Below are positions 38,101 through 45,824 of a stretch of 49,602 bases of DNA, piece by piece; positions within the stretch are counted from its first letter, which is position 1, and the number at the start of each line of letters is the position of its first letter. The DNA is from an uncultured Bacteriovoracaceae bacterium (GTDB lineage: Bacteria; Bdellovibrionota; Bacteriovoracia; Bacteriovoracales; Bacteriovoracaceae). The DNA is taken from the NCBI GenBank assembly GCA_937930825.1, contig CALHBL010000101.1, forward strand, positions 1 through 49,602, given 5' to 3'. The notes under the pieces are model-generated. The model was not told the origin of the DNA, ran no database searches, and worked only from the letters and a program-made list of their open reading frames with translations. Both the position numbers and the translations under genes were made by a program.

Positions 38101-38266
38101 TCTTTATTCCTTCATCGAAAACGATTGTTCCAATTTCATCATAATGTTTTTTAGAGTTCTTTCTAAAAGTCCAAAAAACTACAAAGGTAAAAAAACTAAG
38201 AAAAATTACAAATGCTACAACTGTAAGATCTGTCCATGCAAAATTACTCAACACTTGAGACTTCAT
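38093..38266 (-). CDS. ccoQ: cbb3 oxidase small subunit CcoQ
   Basis: A 57-aa single-helix protein that stabilises cbb3 oxidase. ATG 38266 is used because GGGAGGTAAGA sits immediately upstream (the frame is open further to 38290, inside ccoNO). One membrane helix (LTVVAFVIFLSFFTFVVFW) is followed by the typical cytoplasmic tail with KKHYDEIGTIVFDEG. It overlaps the end of ccoNO by 23 bases and the start of ccoP by 8. Confidence 0.85.
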   Translation of the reverse strand: MKSQVLSNFAWTDLTVVAFVIFLSFFTFVVFWTFRKNSKKHYDEIGTIVFDEGIKNE

Positions 38267-40406
38267 TCTTACCTCCCATGTCCACGCCAAGTCTTTGAAG
38301 ATAGGCTATGAGTGCTATAATTTCTTTATCTACCATTTTGTTAGGAACGCCATCACTTACAAGTCCTGTCATCATAGAAGTCGCCTGGGCCATGGCATTT
38401 ATTGCGGCCTGATCAATTTCTTGTGAGCTATAAGGCGCACCAAGGGCTTCGAGGATAGTAAGCTTCTTTGGAAGTTGCTTGAACTTAACCTTATTCTTAT
38501 ATAGCCAAGGATAGTTTGGCATTATTGATCCCGGAGTAACATTTCGAGGATCAAGCATATGACGGTAGTGCCACATATCTGAATACTTCTTTCCTACACG
38601 GTGTAGATCAGGTCCAATTCTTCTGGAGCCCCACTGAAAAGGGCGATCATAAACATATTCTGCAGCATTTGAGACACGTCCATAACGTAACTTTTCAGAT
38701 ACAATTGGTCTTACCATTTGAGAGTGGCAGGTATAGCAGCCTTCTCTTACATAGATATCTCTTCCCGCTACCTCTAGTGCTGTGTAGGGCTTAACTCTTG
38801 AGTCCTTAACCACAAACTGATTAGAGACAAGTGAAGGAACAAGCTCAATAACAGTACCAACTAAAATAGCCAAAAAAGCTAGAATAGAGAAAACCAGAGG
38901 AATTCCTTCTAGCTTCCTATGTTTACCACCATGAGTATCAAGTGGATTCATGGAAAGAGGAAGTGCTTTAAACTCTTGCTCCTCTTCTTGTTTCGGTGCA
39001 AGTTTGATTGTTTTATAGAGATTGTAAACAAGGAGTATGAAGCCAAAGAGAACAAGCGTTCCACCAAAGGCCCTAACCCAGTACATCGGTACGATTTTAA
39101 CAACAGTTTCTATGAAGTTTGGATAAACAAGTTTTCCAGTCTCATCTACTGCTTGCCACATCAATCCCTGAGTAATGCCTGCTACCCACATAGATACAAT
39201 ATAAAGAACAAGGCCTATCGTTGCAGACCAGAATTGCATATTCGCCAGTTTATTTGAATAAAGCTTAGTATTCCAAAGCTTGGGAACCATATAATAGAGC
39301 ATTCCAGAGATGATCATGTAGTTCCAGCCGATAGTGCCAGAGTGAACATGACCAACAATCCAATCTGTAAAGTGAGCTAGGGAGTTTACTGATTTTATAG
39401 ATAGGAGTGGGCCTTCAAAAGTCGACATTCCATAGAATGTTACTGAAGTTGCAAGAAATTTTAAAATAGGCTCTTTTCTAACTCGGTCCCAGGCTCCACG
39501 AAGTGTTAGCAAGCCATTGATCATACCACCCCAAGATGGTGCCCATAGGGCAATAGAAAAGGCCATTCCAACTGATTGAACCCACTCTGGTAAAGTTGAG
39601 TAAAGTAAGTGGTGTGGTCCTGCCCAGATATAAACGAAAATGAGTGACCAAAAATGGATTATCGAAAGTCTGTATGAGTAGACGGGACGATTAATTGCTT
39701 TAGGAATGAAGTAGTACATTAAACCTAGAAAAGGAGTCGTTAAAAAGAAGGCCACTGCATTATGACCATACCACCACTGGACCAGAGCATCTTGAACACC
39801 TGCAAAGGCAGAGTAAGACTTCATTAAACTAACAGGAATTGCTAAATTATTTACTACATAAAGAACAGCAACAGTAATAATCGTTGCAATATAGAACCAA
39901 ATAGCGACGTAAATATGCCTCTCTCTTCTCTTTTTAATGGTTAGAAAGAAGTTGACTCCAAAGATGACCCAAACAACTGCAACAAGAATATCAATTGGCC
40001 ATTCAAGTTCTGCATATTCTTTAGCACTTGATATGCCGAGGGGAAGCGTTATAGCTGCAAGAACGATAATAATTTGCCAGCCCCAGAAGTGAATACGCCC
40101 TAAAAGATCACTTCCCATTCTTGTCTTCAGCAATCTCTGCGTCGAGTAATAAACCCCAGCAAAGATAGCATTACCGGTAAAAGCGAATATGGCCGCGTTG
40201 GTGTGTAATGGTCTGAGACGACCAAAAGTAAACCATGGCAGATCTAAGTTCAGTTTCCAGTTTGCTAGTTCAAATGCTATCCAGACTCCTAAAGAGAGGG
40301 CAACGATCCCCCAAATAACAGTCGCAATAACAAAGAGTTTTGTTAGCTTGTCGTCGTAAGAAAAAGACTCTAAATCTTTTTCCTCGTACGCAACATCAGT
40401 GCTCAT
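38244..40406 (-). CDS. ccoNO: Fused cbb3 oxidase subunits I and II, CcoNO
   Basis: One 720-aa protein joins the catalytic haem-copper subunit CcoN (about 1-470) to the monohaem cytochrome CcoO (about 500-720). In CcoN, His68 and His355 are haem ligands, His215, His265 and His266 bind CuB, and His353 is the high-spin haem ligand region (GHVHSGTIGWN). In CcoO a membrane helix (about 503-523) precedes the haem site CYTCHSQMVRP (Cys557, Cys560, His561). The fusion is known from Bacteroidetes and Bdellovibrio relatives. It is the terminal oxidase for low oxygen, reducing O2 to water. The start overlaps the ccoS stop (ATGA). Confidence 0.95.
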   Translation of the reverse strand: MSTDVAYEEKDLESFSYDDKLTKLFVIATVIWGIVALSLGVWIAFELANWKLNLDLPWFTFGRLRPLHTNAAIFAFTGNAIFAGVYYSTQRLLKTRMGSDLLGRIHFWGWQIIIVLAAITLPLGISSAKEYAELEWPIDILVAVVWVIFGVNFFLTIKKRRERHIYVAIWFYIATIITVAVLYVVNNLAIPVSLMKSYSAFAGVQDALVQWWYGHNAVAFFLTTPFLGLMYYFIPKAINRPVYSYRLSIIHFWSLIFVYIWAGPHHLLYSTLPEWVQSVGMAFSIALWAPSWGGMINGLLTLRGAWDRVRKEPILKFLATSVTFYGMSTFEGPLLSIKSVNSLAHFTDWIVGHVHSGTIGWNYMIISGMLYYMVPKLWNTKLYSNKLANMQFWSATIGLVLYIVSMWVAGITQGLMWQAVDETGKLVYPNFIETVVKIVPMYWVRAFGGTLVLFGFILLVYNLYKTIKLAPKQEEEQEFKALPLSMNPLDTHGGKHRKLEGIPLVFSILAFLAILVGTVIELVPSLVSNQFVVKDSRVKPYTALEVAGRDIYVREGCYTCHSQMVRPIVSEKLRYGRVSNAAEYVYDRPFQWGSRRIGPDLHRVGKKYSDMWHYRHMLDPRNVTPGSIMPNYPWLYKNKVKFKQLPKKLTILEALGAPYSSQEIDQAAINAMAQATSMMTGLVSDGVPNKMVDKEIIALIAYLQRLGVDMGGKNEVSSVE

Positions 40407-40573
40407 ACTTCCTTCCTTTTGATATTATTATTATTATCTTCTTCAAATAAAATTCTTTTGCTTGGGGTATCTAGGTCATCAAACTGTCCATTCTTTGTGG
40501 CCCAAATAAAGAGAGCTAAAAAAGATACACCAAGAGCGATGGCAAAGGGGATAAGTATTGTTATGACTTCCAT
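40403..40573 (-). CDS. ccoS: cbb3 oxidase assembly protein CcoS
   Basis: Found by translating the gap between ccoI and ccoNO: ATG 40573-40571, stop TGA 40405-40403. The 56-aa peptide has the CcoS form: one N-terminal helix (ITILIPFAIALGVSFLALFIW) followed by the conserved ATKNGQFDDLDTPSKRILF. CcoS is needed for adding cofactors to cbb3 oxidase. It lies two bases after the ccoI stop and overlaps the ccoNO start by four bases. Confidence 0.93.
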   Translation of the reverse strand: MEVITILIPFAIALGVSFLALFIWATKNGQFDDLDTPSKRILFEEDNNNNIKRKEV

Positions 40574-40575
40574 GA

Positions 40576-42999
40576 CTAGAGAGTTTTCCTATTAATAAAT
40601 AATGACTCTCTTGTGCCCCAGAGGGTTGAAAGGAGAACAGTTAGTGAACTTAAGGGCATAAGTATTGCTGCCTCGAGGGGGCCAAGAATGCCAAAAAGAG
40701 CTAGAGTTGCGCCTAGAATATTATAAACTATTGAAAACACCAAATTACGTTTGATTGTTTTAGAGCCTGCTTTTGCCATGAGTAGTATGTGAGGAATTAG
40801 CTCAATATCGCTACCCTTAAGATAAATTTCGCTTGAGCTTAAGCTAACTTCTAAGGAACCTTTGACAGCAATTGAAGTACTGCTTTTACTGAAGGCTAAA
40901 GTATCATTTACTCCATCCCCAATAAAGAGGGTGTTGGGGTATTGTTCTACCCATTCCCCTTTTTCTTCAGGAGACATACTTGATCGCCAGTTAGTTTTAT
41001 TTAAATTAAGTTGGGCAGCAACCTCTCTAACTTGAGAAGGTTGGTCTCCAGAGGCTATGAAGAGATTGTAATTCTTAGAGTTAAGTTCTTCAAAAAGGCT
41101 TGCTGTATTATCTTTAATTGTATCTTTAAGAAGCATTTCTGTAATCACTTTACCGTCTTCAACAAGTATAATTTTAAGAAATTCATTGTCTGATGGAGAT
41201 GAGCGAATCTCATAGTTAGTGCCGTCTATCGAGGCCGTGACTCCTTTTCCTAGATTTTCGCAAAGGTTAGTACATGGAATATTCTCGAGGGTGGCTGAAG
41301 ATAGTTTAGCCCAGTCAATAAGGGTAAGTGCGACTGGATGACTACTATTTGCCTCCATTGAAAAAATAATGCTCTCTATAGAATAGGGAGCACTAGCTTC
41401 TCTTATTCGTTTAACTCTTGCTACACGGTAATCACCTGTTGTAATAGTCCCAGTTTTATCAAAGAAGATATTCTTAGCTCGAGAGAGTTTTTCTAGTACA
41501 TATTCTGATTTAAGGAGTGCACCCATTTTTGCGCTTAGGTTCATTATTCTTGAATAGGTTAGCGGTGTTGCTAGTCCTAGTGCACAGGGGCAAGTAATTA
41601 TAATGAGTGCAAGGGCCCGATTGATTCCTGACTCTATTTGACCTAGAAATATAAAAGTAAGAATGGTTAATGCACTCGTTGCTAATACAGCTGCAACAAA
41701 GAATTTGCTGATTCGATCTGTAAGAAGTGTGATATTCGCCTTCTTTTTATCGATGCTATCAGCGGCAGCATAGATTTTACCAAGTTTAGTTTCTTCAGCA
41801 CAGCTTATGACTTCAATCTCAATTGCTGAGCCTAGATTAATTGTTCCCATAAAAACCATCATTCCTTTATGATGTTTTTTAGCTTTTGATTCTCCATTTA
41901 AGATTGCTAATGATATTTCACTACTGCCTTTGATAATCTTTCCATCGCAGGGGAGAGAAGATCCTGGAGAGATAAGAATCGTATCTCCTACTCGAATTTG
42001 AGAGGGGTGTATCTCTTCGAGTTGATTTTCAGAGCTTCTTCGAACGATAGAAGAATCTGTTAAAAACGAGTTAAGACCACTTCTTTGATAATTATGCCTT
42101 GAAGCTTTAAGAAGTAGATAGCGAGAAAATAGGATAAGAAAAGTTAGTGTTGCAATCGAGTCAAAGTAGTGTGCTTCAGTTCCAATGATCACATTGTGCA
42201 AGCTGACTATGAACCCTAGGACAATAGCAATACTAAGGGGAGTATCAATATTAATGCTTCCATTAACTATGGCCTTAATAGAGGAAGTATAAAAAGGTTG
42301 TGCACAGTAAGTGACAATTGGAATACAAAATACAAGTGCTATGAAAGAGAATGCAGACCCAATAACTCCCTGGGCTCCTGCATAGAGGCCAACTGCGTAG
42401 AGCATGATATTCATCATGCAGGCAGCAGCAACACCTATACGTAAAAGGTAGCTGCGTTCTTCTTTTTGTTGAAGTTTCTTTATTTCGTCATCACTCCTTA
42501 GGGGAGTCGGAGGATAGCCGAGATTATTTAGTGCTGAAGCAACTTTAGAGAATAATGTGAACTCTTTCTTTAAGGTAATTGTTGCAACAGAATTCTCAAA
42601 ATTTAAGCGAACGCTTTTAATCTCTGGAGTAAACGTCGGAATTTTTTCGATAAGCCAAAGACAAGCAATGCAGTGAACTCCTTCTAGAAAAAAAGAAAGA
42701 GTCGCTTCAGAGTTTAAATTGTAGTGAACGTAGTCTTGAAGAAATAGTGGATCATCAAGGTAAGAGTATTGTTTTTCTTGGATTCTATTAACTGCCTTTC
42801 TAGGCGTATCATCTGCTTTTTGAATATTATAATAATTTTGAAGGTTATGGTTTTTTATAATACTAAAAACAGTTAAGCAGCCTCTACAGCAGAAGTTATC
42901 TCCTTGGTCATTTGTGTAGGGAGTAATGACTGGTAGAGCACAGTGATCACATTGAAGCCCGTAAATGTTAGAAATATCTTGCGATATGGACTGTTCCAA
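40576..42999 (-). CDS. ccoI: Copper-transporting P-type ATPase CcoI (FixI)
   Basis: An 807-aa P1B ATPase supplying copper to cbb3 oxidase. It starts at a TTG (AAGG 9 bases ahead). The N-terminus holds a CDHC and CCRGC metal domain, then an HMA domain with CIAC (110-113). The membrane part has the CPC ion site (Cys470-Pro-Cys472, CPCALGLATP), the phosphorylation motif DKTGT with Asp514, and GDGVNDTLAFS near the C-terminus. It is first of the cco operon; an Fnr-like palindrome lies about 92 bases upstream. Confidence 0.93.
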   Translation of the reverse strand: MEQSISQDISNIYGLQCDHCALPVITPYTNDQGDNFCCRGCLTVFSIIKNHNLQNYYNIQKADDTPRKAVNRIQEKQYSYLDDPLFLQDYVHYNLNSEATLSFFLEGVHCIACLWLIEKIPTFTPEIKSVRLNFENSVATITLKKEFTLFSKVASALNNLGYPPTPLRSDDEIKKLQQKEERSYLLRIGVAAACMMNIMLYAVGLYAGAQGVIGSAFSFIALVFCIPIVTYCAQPFYTSSIKAIVNGSINIDTPLSIAIVLGFIVSLHNVIIGTEAHYFDSIATLTFLILFSRYLLLKASRHNYQRSGLNSFLTDSSIVRRSSENQLEEIHPSQIRVGDTILISPGSSLPCDGKIIKGSSEISLAILNGESKAKKHHKGMMVFMGTINLGSAIEIEVISCAEETKLGKIYAAADSIDKKKANITLLTDRISKFFVAAVLATSALTILTFIFLGQIESGINRALALIIITCPCALGLATPLTYSRIMNLSAKMGALLKSEYVLEKLSRAKNIFFDKTGTITTGDYRVARVKRIREASAPYSIESIIFSMEANSSHPVALTLIDWAKLSSATLENIPCTNLCENLGKGVTASIDGTNYEIRSSPSDNEFLKIILVEDGKVITEMLLKDTIKDNTASLFEELNSKNYNLFIASGDQPSQVREVAAQLNLNKTNWRSSMSPEEKGEWVEQYPNTLFIGDGVNDTLAFSKSSTSIAVKGSLEVSLSSSEIYLKGSDIELIPHILLMAKAGSKTIKRNLVFSIVYNILGATLALFGILGPLEAAILMPLSSLTVLLSTLWGTRESLFINRKTL

Positions 43000-43090
43000 T
43001 CTTTTGCCTTATCTAGTCAATGTAACTCTTTAATAGCAGCCTAAAATGAAGTTATAAGATAATCTTATATAACTTCTGAGTCTAAGAATA

Positions 43091-43102
43091 TGATCTAGAT
43101 CA
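43091..43102. promoter_or_regulatory. Fnr-like binding site upstream of ccoI
   Basis: TGAT-CTAG-ATCA, inside the longer palindrome TATGATCTAGATCATA. It matches the core of the FNR consensus TTGAT-N4-ATCAA. A -10-like TATATA/TATAAG lies at about 43071-43064, so the site would be near -38 to -40, fitting activation of ccoI by the adjacent Fnr-like protein. Confidence 0.6.
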
Positions 43103-43116
43103 TATATTGAATAAAG

Positions 43117-43509
43117 CTATTGACAGGTTATACAGAGGGGAGGCTCAAGCTGTGTAATTAGTTGAGCAAAGTCTTGATCAAGTTTGTCCTTAAAAGTTAG
43201 AAGTTCAAAAATAGAGCTTTTATCTAGAAAATACAGTGTAGTATCTTTTTTTACTTTAGCAGCGTATTGACAGGTCTTGTTTCCTATAAGTTCGACAAGT
43301 CCAAGAGCTGAGCAAGGTGGAATAGAGCTAATCTCCCTTCGATTCTTAGTGAGTATGAGCTCACCTTCTAATAGAATATAGGCAACGATTGGGGTCTGGT
43401 TTTCATAAAATAGGTCGGTGCTAACAGTATAGGTAAAGGGATTGCCGAGTTTCTTTATAAGTTGAAGAGATTTTTTACTCAGTTTTAAAAATTGGGGTTT
43501 TCTATCCAT
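43117..43509 (-). CDS. Cyclic-nucleotide-binding-domain protein without DNA-binding domain
   Basis: A 130-aa protein that matches only the beta-roll of the CRP/FNR superfamily (YILLEGELILTKNRREISSIPP, then GLVELIGN and the strand TTLYFLDKSS). There is no helix-turn-helix: the protein ends after the long helix with CITCQ, a CxxC that could bind metal or form a disulphide. The usual cAMP-phosphate Arg/Glu pair is not obvious. It sits between ccoI and the Fnr-like gene on the same strand. It may sense a signal for the oxidase operon or bind a partner; both are inference. Confidence 0.65.
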   Translation of the reverse strand: MDRKPQFLKLSKKSLQLIKKLGNPFTYTVSTDLFYENQTPIVAYILLEGELILTKNRREISSIPPCSALGLVELIGNKTCQYAAKVKKDTTLYFLDKSSIFELLTFKDKLDQDFAQLITQLEPPLCITCQ

Positions 43510-43587
43510 TTATTAAATATAAGCAAATATTTTAAAAAAAAACCTAATCTAACTCAGTAAATAAAATAAAAAATGAAGGGGGCCTGA

Positions 43588-44304
43588 TTAATAGCTGAGA
43601 TTCGCAAGGTCTATAAGCTTTTCCTCATCTTTAATGTAAAGATATTTACCTTTTTGCTCAATTAGCCCGGCCTCTTTGAATTCACTGATGAAGCGAATTA
43701 TCGTCTCATTTGCTGTCCCAATCATGGTGGCCATTTCTTCTCGAGTTAGTTTTAGATTTATTTTTAACTTATCCTCTGTGTCAATAGTTCCATGGGATTC
43801 CTTAAGAATAAGTAAAAGCTCTGCTAGTCGCTCGCGTACATTCTTTTGATGGAGAGAAGAGAGTTTACTTTCAGCTTTCCCCATATCAGTTGAAAGCTTC
43901 TCAATGATTTGCATGCTTACAGTTGGCTCTTTTTGCATTACTTTTAGAATAAATTTCTTATCAAGAAAGCAGACTTTTGTGTCTTCAAGAGCAGTTGCAG
44001 TGGCCATATAAAATTGGTTAGTGAAAAGACTTCTATGCCCTAGAACATCCCCTGCGCTAGCTATTCTAACGATTGACTCTTTTCCATTTACTCCAACTTT
44101 CGTAACTTTGATGTTGCCTGTACTTATACAGAATAGGCCAAAAGGGTGGTTGCCTTGAACGAAGAGAGTTTGGCCTTTTTTGTATGTATTAGTCACTTTG
44201 TGTCGTGCGACATCTGCGAGGGCAGACTCTTCAACCGAGCAAAAGATTCCTTTCGCTAGAGAGGGACAGTTTGAGCAATTCTGTGATTTCGTTGATTGTA
44301 CCAT
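43588..44304 (-). CDS. CRP/FNR-family regulator, probable oxygen sensor
   Basis: A 238-aa regulator. N-terminal cysteines Cys10, Cys13 and Cys22 (NCSNC...IFC), with Cys59 and Cys112 in the sensor domain, could bind an oxygen-labile [4Fe-4S] cluster as in FNR; spacing differs from E. coli FNR. The beta roll (about 40-120) is followed by the dimer helix and a winged helix-turn-helix with TREEMATMIGTANETIIRFI; the Glu and Arg of the FNR recognition helix are kept but the Ser between them is Ile. Its own gene and ccoI have TGAT-N4-ATCA sites upstream, so it probably controls itself and the oxidase genes. Confidence 0.82.
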   Translation of the reverse strand: MVQSTKSQNCSNCPSLAKGIFCSVEESALADVARHKVTNTYKKGQTLFVQGNHPFGLFCISTGNIKVTKVGVNGKESIVRIASAGDVLGHRSLFTNQFYMATATALEDTKVCFLDKKFILKVMQKEPTVSMQIIEKLSTDMGKAESKLSSLHQKNVRERLAELLLILKESHGTIDTEDKLKINLKLTREEMATMIGTANETIIRFISEFKEAGLIEQKGKYLYIKDEEKLIDLANLSY

Positions 44305-44385: not shown

Positions 44386-44838
44386 TTACATATCGTTTTG
44401 ATAAAAGCGGAACTTTATCTCTTCAATTCTCTTTGAATTTACTCCAAAGTCTTTCTTTCCAAGCCGAGAAGCGCTTCTAAAGTGAATGATATTATTTTGG
44501 CTGAAGTCGAATTCAACATCATCTACAAACTTAAATACAGAGGAGGTGTATTCGGCATAAATATAATCAGGGCTTTCTTTAATCAGTTGAGCAGAGGATG
44601 TTTTGATTATAATAGAGGATATAAGCTTTTTAGCCTGCTCTTTTGGCATTTTGTATTGGAGGGGCTCTACATAGTGCTCTTTATCTTCAATGTAGTGACT
44701 AGAGAGACAGTTTGGTGTCTGAGGGCACTTTGTAAGTACTTTTCCCTTGGGCCCATCAGTTATACCAATATTGTTAGGCCGTTCAGATTGGCAGGAGTTA
44801 AGTATACTAATAACGGTGAATATATAAAGTAGTTTCAT
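44386..44838 (-). CDS. DUF1499 lipoprotein
   Basis: A 150-aa protein with lipobox LNSC (Cys16). The DUF1499 pattern is clear: CPQTPNCLSSHY near the start of the mature part, then FVDDVEFDFSQNNIIHFRSASRLGKKDFGVNSKRIEEI, where family members have 'DDVEF ... HvRSaSR.G..D.GvN..R'. Its function is unknown. The start overlaps the DUF2288 gene's stop by four bases, so the two are translated together. Confidence 0.88.
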   Translation of the reverse strand: MKLLYIFTVISILNSCQSERPNNIGITDGPKGKVLTKCPQTPNCLSSHYIEDKEHYVEPLQYKMPKEQAKKLISSIIIKTSSAQLIKESPDYIYAEYTSSVFKFVDDVEFDFSQNNIIHFRSASRLGKKDFGVNSKRIEEIKFRFYQNDM

Positions 44839-45128
44839 GCTTGAATCTTCCTTTGAATAAGTACATAAGGCTCAATGATAAGCATATTGAAGAGAACTTC
44901 ATCTGTTTTATTAAATTGTAGGGCCTCTTCTGGTGTTGGGGGATAGAGTAGTCCGTTATCCAGCCACTGTTTTACTTCGGAGAGATTGTCACTGGCCATA
45001 GATTCTCCGACTTCCACTAATTCTAAGTCTTTATCTAAAAGGTAGACCGCACCTTTGGCAAAGTGTTCGGCCAGGGGCGCCCAGCTTGTTTCTAATAAAT
45101 CTGCTTCTAACTTTTCTCTTAAACTCAT
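44835..45128 (-). CDS. DUF2288 family protein
   Basis: A 97-aa cytoplasmic protein that matches DUF2288 along its length: LLETSWAPLAEHFAKGAVYLLDKDLELVEVGESMASDN, then VKQWLDNGLLYPPT and the ending FNMLIIEPYVLIQ. Function unknown in the family. It is first of a two-gene unit with the DUF1499 lipoprotein. The histone terminator lies just upstream, so it must have its own promoter or be reached by read-through. Confidence 0.85.
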   Translation of the reverse strand: MSLREKLEADLLETSWAPLAEHFAKGAVYLLDKDLELVEVGESMASDNLSEVKQWLDNGLLYPPTPEEALQFNKTDEVLFNMLIIEPYVLIQRKIQA

Positions 45129-45151
45129 TTTAATTTACTCTCGGTAATAGA

Positions 45152-45183
45152 TAAAAAAAAAGGCCGGAAATTTCCGACCTCGT
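45152..45183 (-). terminator. Intrinsic terminator of the histone gene
   Basis: Minus strand AGGTCGGAAATTTCCGGCCT hairpin (one mismatch pair) followed by nine Ts and ATC. It lies 17 bases after the histone stop. Confidence 0.9.
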
Positions 45184-45199: not shown

Positions 45200-45385
45200 C
45201 TAGAAGTCTGTTGCTTTAACAGTTTTTCTTCCGTTATTTACACATCTTTCTTGAGCTTCTTTTACAAGCTTGTGAACTCTTTCATTAAGCTTATCAAGTG
45301 CTTCACCAGAAACATTTAATCCTGTTGATTTAAGTGCTTCTTTAGTTTTTGAACCAACAAGTAGCATTTCGATTTCTTTGGCCAT
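45200..45385 (-). CDS. Bacterial histone-fold DNA-binding protein (HBb/Bd0055-like)
   Basis: A 61-aa basic protein with a single histone fold: a short first helix, a central helix SGEALDKLNERVHKLVKEAQ, and the end GRKTVKATDF, which corresponds to the 'RKT(I/V/L)...D' DNA-contact loop and third helix of archaeal histones. The length and pattern match the singlet histone of Bdellovibrio (HBb, Bd0055), which dimerises, bends or coats DNA and is abundant and essential there. AAGGAG lies 6 bases before the ATG. A good promoter and a strong terminator make it a compact single-gene unit, as expected for a highly expressed nucleoid protein. Confidence 0.85.
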   Translation of the reverse strand: MAKEIEMLLVGSKTKEALKSTGLNVSGEALDKLNERVHKLVKEAQERCVNNGRKTVKATDF

Positions 45386-45433
45386 AGTAGTCTCCTTATC
45401 TTTTGTTAATAGGGTTGATTGATTAGTAGAGTT

Positions 45434-45461
45434 ATTCTAGTGGTAAAATATAAGGATTCAA
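45434..45461 (-). promoter_or_regulatory. Promoter of the histone gene
   Basis: Minus strand TTGAAT (45461-45456), 16 bases, TAGAAT (45439-45434). The start would be near 45427, about 42 bases before the ATG. Confidence 0.6.
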
Positions 45462-45824
45462 TGAATAGTGCAGTAGGAAAAGGTTGTCTTTTCAATAAAA
45501 GAGCACTTTTTTAATCTTTTTTCTTATTTTAGCTCCATATGCTTCACTGTGCTGCAATTGCTGCTTTAAGTCTTCGCTCAAATAGGTAGAGTGCAGCAGT
45601 TGCTCTCCAGAACTTACCATGAGGACAAATGGACTCTTTAAAGTCACTTATGAGTGAAAGGTTTTAACTATTTCAGGTTATTCAACCGGAGAGATAAGGA
45701 AAAAATAGTTGCTATAAATTGACCAATATTTGACTTCAAAAAGTAACTTTTGATTTATGATTCTAAGGAAAATTGTAAAAGACATAAGTCTAATAAATAG
45801 CAATGAAAGAAAGGTTTTAATCCC
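45462..45824. other. Gene-free AT-rich stretch between divergent genes
   Basis: 363 bases with no supportable gene on either strand. The left part serves the histone promoter and the right part must contain the promoter of the YceI-like gene (TTGACT near 45732 is a candidate -35 box). Two GTGC/GCAGC-rich words near 45550 and 45590 resemble each other loosely. Nothing else is seen. Confidence 0.4.

Follow-up and report, generated by a model that had tools for sequence, protein, structure and literature searches.

The gene at positions 45200..45385 (minus strand, stop codon included) of the window, that is, the whole 49,602-nucleotide stretch of DNA analysed from an uncultured Bacteriovoracaceae bacterium, encodes a face-to-face (FtF)-type α3 singlet histone of 61 amino acids, MAKEIEMLLVGSKTKEALKSTGLNVSGEALDKLNERVHKLVKEAQERCVNNGRKTVKATDF, beginning with ATG. 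Sequence, fold, interface residues, and position in the histone tree all group this protein with HLp and HTkC, which are tetrameric FtF histones. Very probably, it is a highly expressed histone that, by homology to HLp (PMC12701072) and to HTkC as described in a published survey (PMC11390915), would form tetramers and wrap ~60 bp of DNA as a general chromatin packager. The preliminary description of this DNA had placed a singlet bacterial histone exactly at these coordinates and had correctly assigned the DNA to the Bdellovibrionota.

Histone fold and predicted tetramer interface

Relatives of the 61-aa protein were retained from GTDB species genomes at 80 loci, and comparison with five congeneric sequences revealed 3-5 non-synonymous and 17-22 synonymous codon differences, corresponding to a dN/dS of ~0.04-0.06 (NG86 dN ~0.04, dS 0.68-0.99). 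This is, therefore, not a chance ORF, and the gene is under strong purifying selection. A Shine-Dalgarno sequence, AAGGAG (45392..45397, minus strand), is located 6 nt ahead of the ATG; AGGAG or GGAG precedes nearly all starts of the orthologues.

The Pfam match to PF00808 was marginal (21.0 vs a cut-off of 21.4), and the score with the NCBIfam archaeal histone model was well under the cut-off, so that family libraries alone could not settle the identity of the protein. The AlphaFold2 model (mean pLDDT 88.1, pTM 0.66) displays a histone fold with helices at 11-19 and 27-50, a single turn of α3 at 58-60, and the chain end at F61. Shortened α2 and α3 truncated to 3-4 residues are the features of an α3 histone. 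All of the best 50 Foldseek matches listed were histone-fold proteins or complexes containing one. Thus, neither a non-histone fold nor a better match to another family emerged, and the identification as a singlet bacterial histone was borne out. The RxTxxxxD motif is represented by R53, T55, and D60, which are invariant in 46 relatives, as are N51 and K54. Two other assignments were dismissed. The DUF1931 pseudodimer (PF09123) consists of two fused folds of ~138 residues, as opposed to the single 61-aa fold found here, and PF09123/DUF1931 had no match in the genome. Designed Pizza proteins among the PDB matches were repeat artefacts with six weak stretches each.

The closest PDB match was HLp of Leptospira perolatii (9QT0/9QT1/9QT2; PMC12701072), with a phmmer E-value of 3.1e-10 (9qt0) vs 3.2e-5 for HBb (8cmp). 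The profile built from 46 sequences also ranked HLp first (4.4e-21 vs 4.4e-16 for HBb), and so did Foldseek (45% identity over 56 aligned residues, TM 0.84-0.91, 1.1 Å), followed by HBb and HTkC. The tetramer interface of HLp is formed by R49, S52, N53, and R55 with T61 and F63 (PMC12701072). These residues map to R47, N50, N51, R53, T59, and F61 in the window protein, five of the six being identical, and the RD clamp (R53-D60) is shared as well. The residues listed for the FtF profile in the survey, R48, N52, R54, T56, and D61 (PMC11390915), are all present as R47, N51, R53, T55, and D60; the first two correspond to the conserved dimer-dimer pair of that profile. The α1 lysine of the FtF profile (K16 in the survey) is represented by K13, next to S12; it corresponds to K15 of HLp and is conserved in >90% of sequences.

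Most of the DNA-contacting residues of HLp are also shared. S14, K15, K17, K21, G29, and T57 of HLp are identical here and R59 is replaced by K57, while four contact positions are changed (A13 to G11, T27 to V25, K54 to G52, and T56 to K54). The last of these substitutions gives the window protein the lysine that is canonical for an RKT motif, whereas loop L2 of HLp carries RTT. HTkC of Thermococcus kodakarensis (PDB 9F2C), as presented in the survey (PMC11390915), shares the FtF α3 fold (TM 0.85, 40% identity) and the arginine corresponding to R47, but is archaeal and has E at position 51, where the window histone has N. While bacterial FtF histones usually possess a basic N-terminal tail, the 61-aa histone has none, and its net charge is only +3. 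Together with the four changed contact positions, these features weigh against the tetramer-forming reading.

The preliminary description had likened the protein to HBb (Bd0055) of Bdellovibrio bacteriovorus (PDB 8CMP, 8FVX, 9EZZ; PMC10627809, PMC11317129). This likeness holds for the α3 fold (8fvx, TM 0.84, 39% identity by Foldseek), the RKTV motif, the RD clamp, singlet architecture, similar length, the phylum, and high expression, the latter being predicted from codon bias in our case. It does not extend to the residues of the tetramer interface: HBb carries S and D at positions 47 and 51 of the profile alignment, and the survey describes bacterial dimer histones of the HBb group as lacking R48/N52 (PMC11390915). 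The maximum-likelihood histone tree, limited by its 58 columns, placed the window protein within a 21-member clade (support 98/92), whose sister clade has 20 members; most of these are FtF histones with a lysine tail, from Bacteriovoracia and other groups. HBb joined the ZZ and doublet histones (support 95/93). The branch of HLp was long and the root fork was supported by 70/36 only, leaving the placement of HLp unsettled. Membership in the HBb type is ruled out by the presence of R47 and N51, the tree, and the scores, HLp being nearer than HBb in both sequence and fold. The survey, too, reports FtF histones from Bacteriovoracia and dimers from Bdellovibrionia (PMC11390915). An HBb-like dimer, which bends DNA without forming tetramers, is therefore a most improbable reading of this gene. 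By its lineage and residues, the gene falls into the group of Bacteriovoracia FtF histones covered by the survey.

Transcription unit, expression, and gene neighbourhood

The scan for sigma-70-like sites upstream of the histone gene found 2 sites vs 3.1 expected by chance and is, taken alone, not significant. The promoter, with the -35 element TTGAAT (45461-45456), a 16-nt spacer, and the -10 element TAGAAT (45439-45434; whole feature 45434..45461, minus strand), was accepted because of its conservation across orthologues. In the alignment of six congeners it forms a conserved island within an otherwise diverged intergenic region. Of the 15 orthologues, 13 carry the pattern TTGANN-N16-TA[A/G]AAT 63-84 nt ahead of the start, the chance rate being 0.2% per region as estimated from dinucleotide shuffles. 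Just 3' of the gene, an intrinsic terminator (45151..45181, minus strand) is composed of a 9-bp G+C stem, GAGGTCGGAAATTTCCGGCCTT (-13.8 kcal/mol with 5' context), followed by a T tract. Most orthologues have equivalent hairpins of similar form and changed sequence. Thus, the histone gene forms a transcription unit by itself, and this arrangement is conserved, in agreement with the earlier proposal of a compact unit with its own promoter and terminator.

Codon usage was compared with that of ribosomal-protein genes and the genes for S12, S7, and EF-G of the same genome, the statistics being drawn from the window and two ribosomal loci. The codon adaptation index (CAI) of the histone gene is 0.809 over its 60 codons. 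The ribosomal set shows a mean of 0.703 and a maximum of 0.765 (leave-one-out), and the 43 window ORFs of at least 100 aa show a mean of 0.597 and a maximum of 0.719. Codon bias above that of ribosomal-protein genes, measured over few codons, supports the high expression suggested earlier, which we regard as probable. Of two further histones of this genome, described below, the tailed FtF paralogue has a similar CAI (0.790) and the ZZ-like histone an ordinary one (0.591). This parallels the situation in B. bacteriovorus, where Bd0055 is abundant and, according to the survey, the ZZ histone is weakly expressed (PMC11390915).

The downstream neighbour, a gene for a DUF2288 protein (44835..45128, minus strand), lies beyond the terminator and outside the unit, and is syntenic in relatives. 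In six related loci (L004-L009) the order histone, DUF2288, DUF1499, FNR-like regulator, cyclic-nucleotide-binding protein, and CcoI-type ATPase is kept. In the window, a cbb3 oxidase block (38244-44304, minus strand) encodes a fused CcoN-CcoO, CcoS, the CcoI-type ATPase, the cyclic-nucleotide-binding protein, and the FNR-like regulator. Given this synteny, the histone fold might serve a role other than packaging, for example in controlling the nearby FNR and cbb3 oxidase genes locally. We consider this extremely unlikely, since the histone DNA-contact residues are kept, the expression signals are very strong, and the terminator sets the histone apart from its neighbours. In addition, the distant orthologues (L011-L017) retain the histone without the whole block, and the synteny is, therefore, probably inherited rather than functional. 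The gene encoding HLp adjoins smc, which is not the case for the window histone gene.

On the other side of the gene, a 51-aa ORF (45492-45647, minus strand) is what remains of the C-terminal part of an acyltransferase-like gene (DUF374-like by eye). This gene is located upstream of the histone in L004-L010, and a homologue (49% identity) occurs elsewhere in this genome (G000:C191:645-1121).

Further histones and HU-family proteins

The genome (3.28 Mb, 443 contigs, 88% complete) encodes three α3 histones, so that the 61-aa protein does not stand alone. The first additional histone is a lysine-tailed FtF paralogue of 90 aa (G000:C81:9153-9335; L002) with a net charge of +17 and 54% identity to the 61-aa histone. 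Its tail, MAKKKATKKKATAKKSSAKKSTAKRSSRK, comprises 29 residues of Lys, Ala, Ser, Thr, and Arg and includes AKKK. This gene and its congeneric counterparts possess a conserved upstream element of their own, TTTTTTACTTGCAAA in most of them, which differs from the promoter of the tailless gene. The second is a ZZ-like histone of 151 aa (G000:C249:3397-3576; L003:1243-1698), in which a Cys/His-rich N-terminal region with a weak MYND match (E 0.19) precedes the histone fold. The search for a loss of HU revealed three PF00216 (HU/IHF-family) matches in the genome; the histones have, therefore, not replaced HU here. L. perolatii, by contrast, has one histone and no HU.

The genus is represented by seven genomes, of which six encode the tailless histone and all seven the tailed and ZZ-like histones. 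Within the family, 120 of 129 genomes contained an α3 histone match. Four relatives at least 91% complete (G050, G026, G051, and G033) have the tailless and lack the tailed histone, and others have only the tailed one. The Halobacteriovorax isolate 36_234_T64 encodes at least the tailed type (L046). The pairing of the two FtF types is, consequently, not obligatory. Nevertheless, the pair of tailless and AKKK-tailed FtF paralogues is old and widely kept, and is the point most worth attention. In the parts of the survey's main text consulted, no description of such a pair was found (PMC11390915), and the literature search for histones in Bacteriovorax yielded nothing relevant.

The co-occurrence of both paralogues in six of seven congeners, the ribosomal-type codon bias of both genes, and the conservation of the R/N/R interface in both proteins speak for the tailless histone being mainly a heterotypic partner of the tailed one, forming mixed dimers or tetramers and chromatin units with one to four tails. 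The existence of tailless-only genomes (such as G050) and tailed-only genomes and the different sequences of the two promoters speak against this, and we judge it rather unlikely. The related notion of a two-histone chromatin in Bacteriovoracia is put forward as a speculation of similarly low probability. Here, an old pair of FtF paralogues, one tailless and one with an AKKK-rich tail resembling those of H1/H3, both highly expressed, would form mixed tetramers, the number of tails would tune compaction, and both would act atop HU/IHF and the ZZ-like zinc-finger histone.

Two other kinds of histones were observed. Doublet histones in seven genomes (L128-L134; G009, G041, G052, G015, G027, G030, and G034) consist of two HBb-like α3 folds in one ORF of ~140 aa. 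They cluster with HBb and the ZZ histones in the tree, and six of these seven genomes have no FtF histones. Doublets are apparently common in one genus (g25), where matches share one frame and are spaced by ~200 bp. The doublet may be a lineage-specific fused dimer replacing FtF histones. Singlet α3-like histones were also present on IMG/VR viral contigs (L147:4977-5171, L148:4887-5180, and L150:4887-5165). Unlike the 'phage histones' of the literature, in which RxTxxxD is missing and an additional helix domain is present at the C-terminus, the one from L147 retains the FtF R and N residues.

Proposed chromatin role and significance

The reading we prefer is that of an abundant, tetramer-forming FtF histone. 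Two subunits would form a head-to-tail dimer, and two dimers would close into a torus-like homotetramer, as inferred from HLp and HTkC, in which T59 and the terminal F61 of one dimer meet R47, N51, and R53 of its partner. DNA would be bound without sequence specificity by S12, K13, K15, and K19 of α1 and by G27, K54, T55, and K57 of loops L1/L2. Each tetramer is predicted to wrap ~60 bp; for HLp, wrapping of ~50-60 bp was demonstrated experimentally (PMC12701072). Made abundantly from its own promoter, the protein would package chromatin alongside HU/IHF and work beside the FtF paralogue with the lysine tail and the ZZ-like histone, whose expression is probably low.

The occurrence of FtF histones in Bacteriovoracia is not new, having been reported in the survey (PMC11390915). 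Since the mechanism of HLp is also known, the 61-aa gene adds a member to a known group. The only well-studied histone of the Bdellovibrionota is HBb, a DNA-bending dimer. Through its conserved regulation and codon bias, the gene described here indicates that the sister class probably uses tetrameric wrapping histones instead, that several paralogues are highly expressed, and that HU is retained. Bacteriovoracia, including the cultured Halobacteriovorax and Bacteriovorax, would therefore be well suited to asking how two to three histones share one chromosome.
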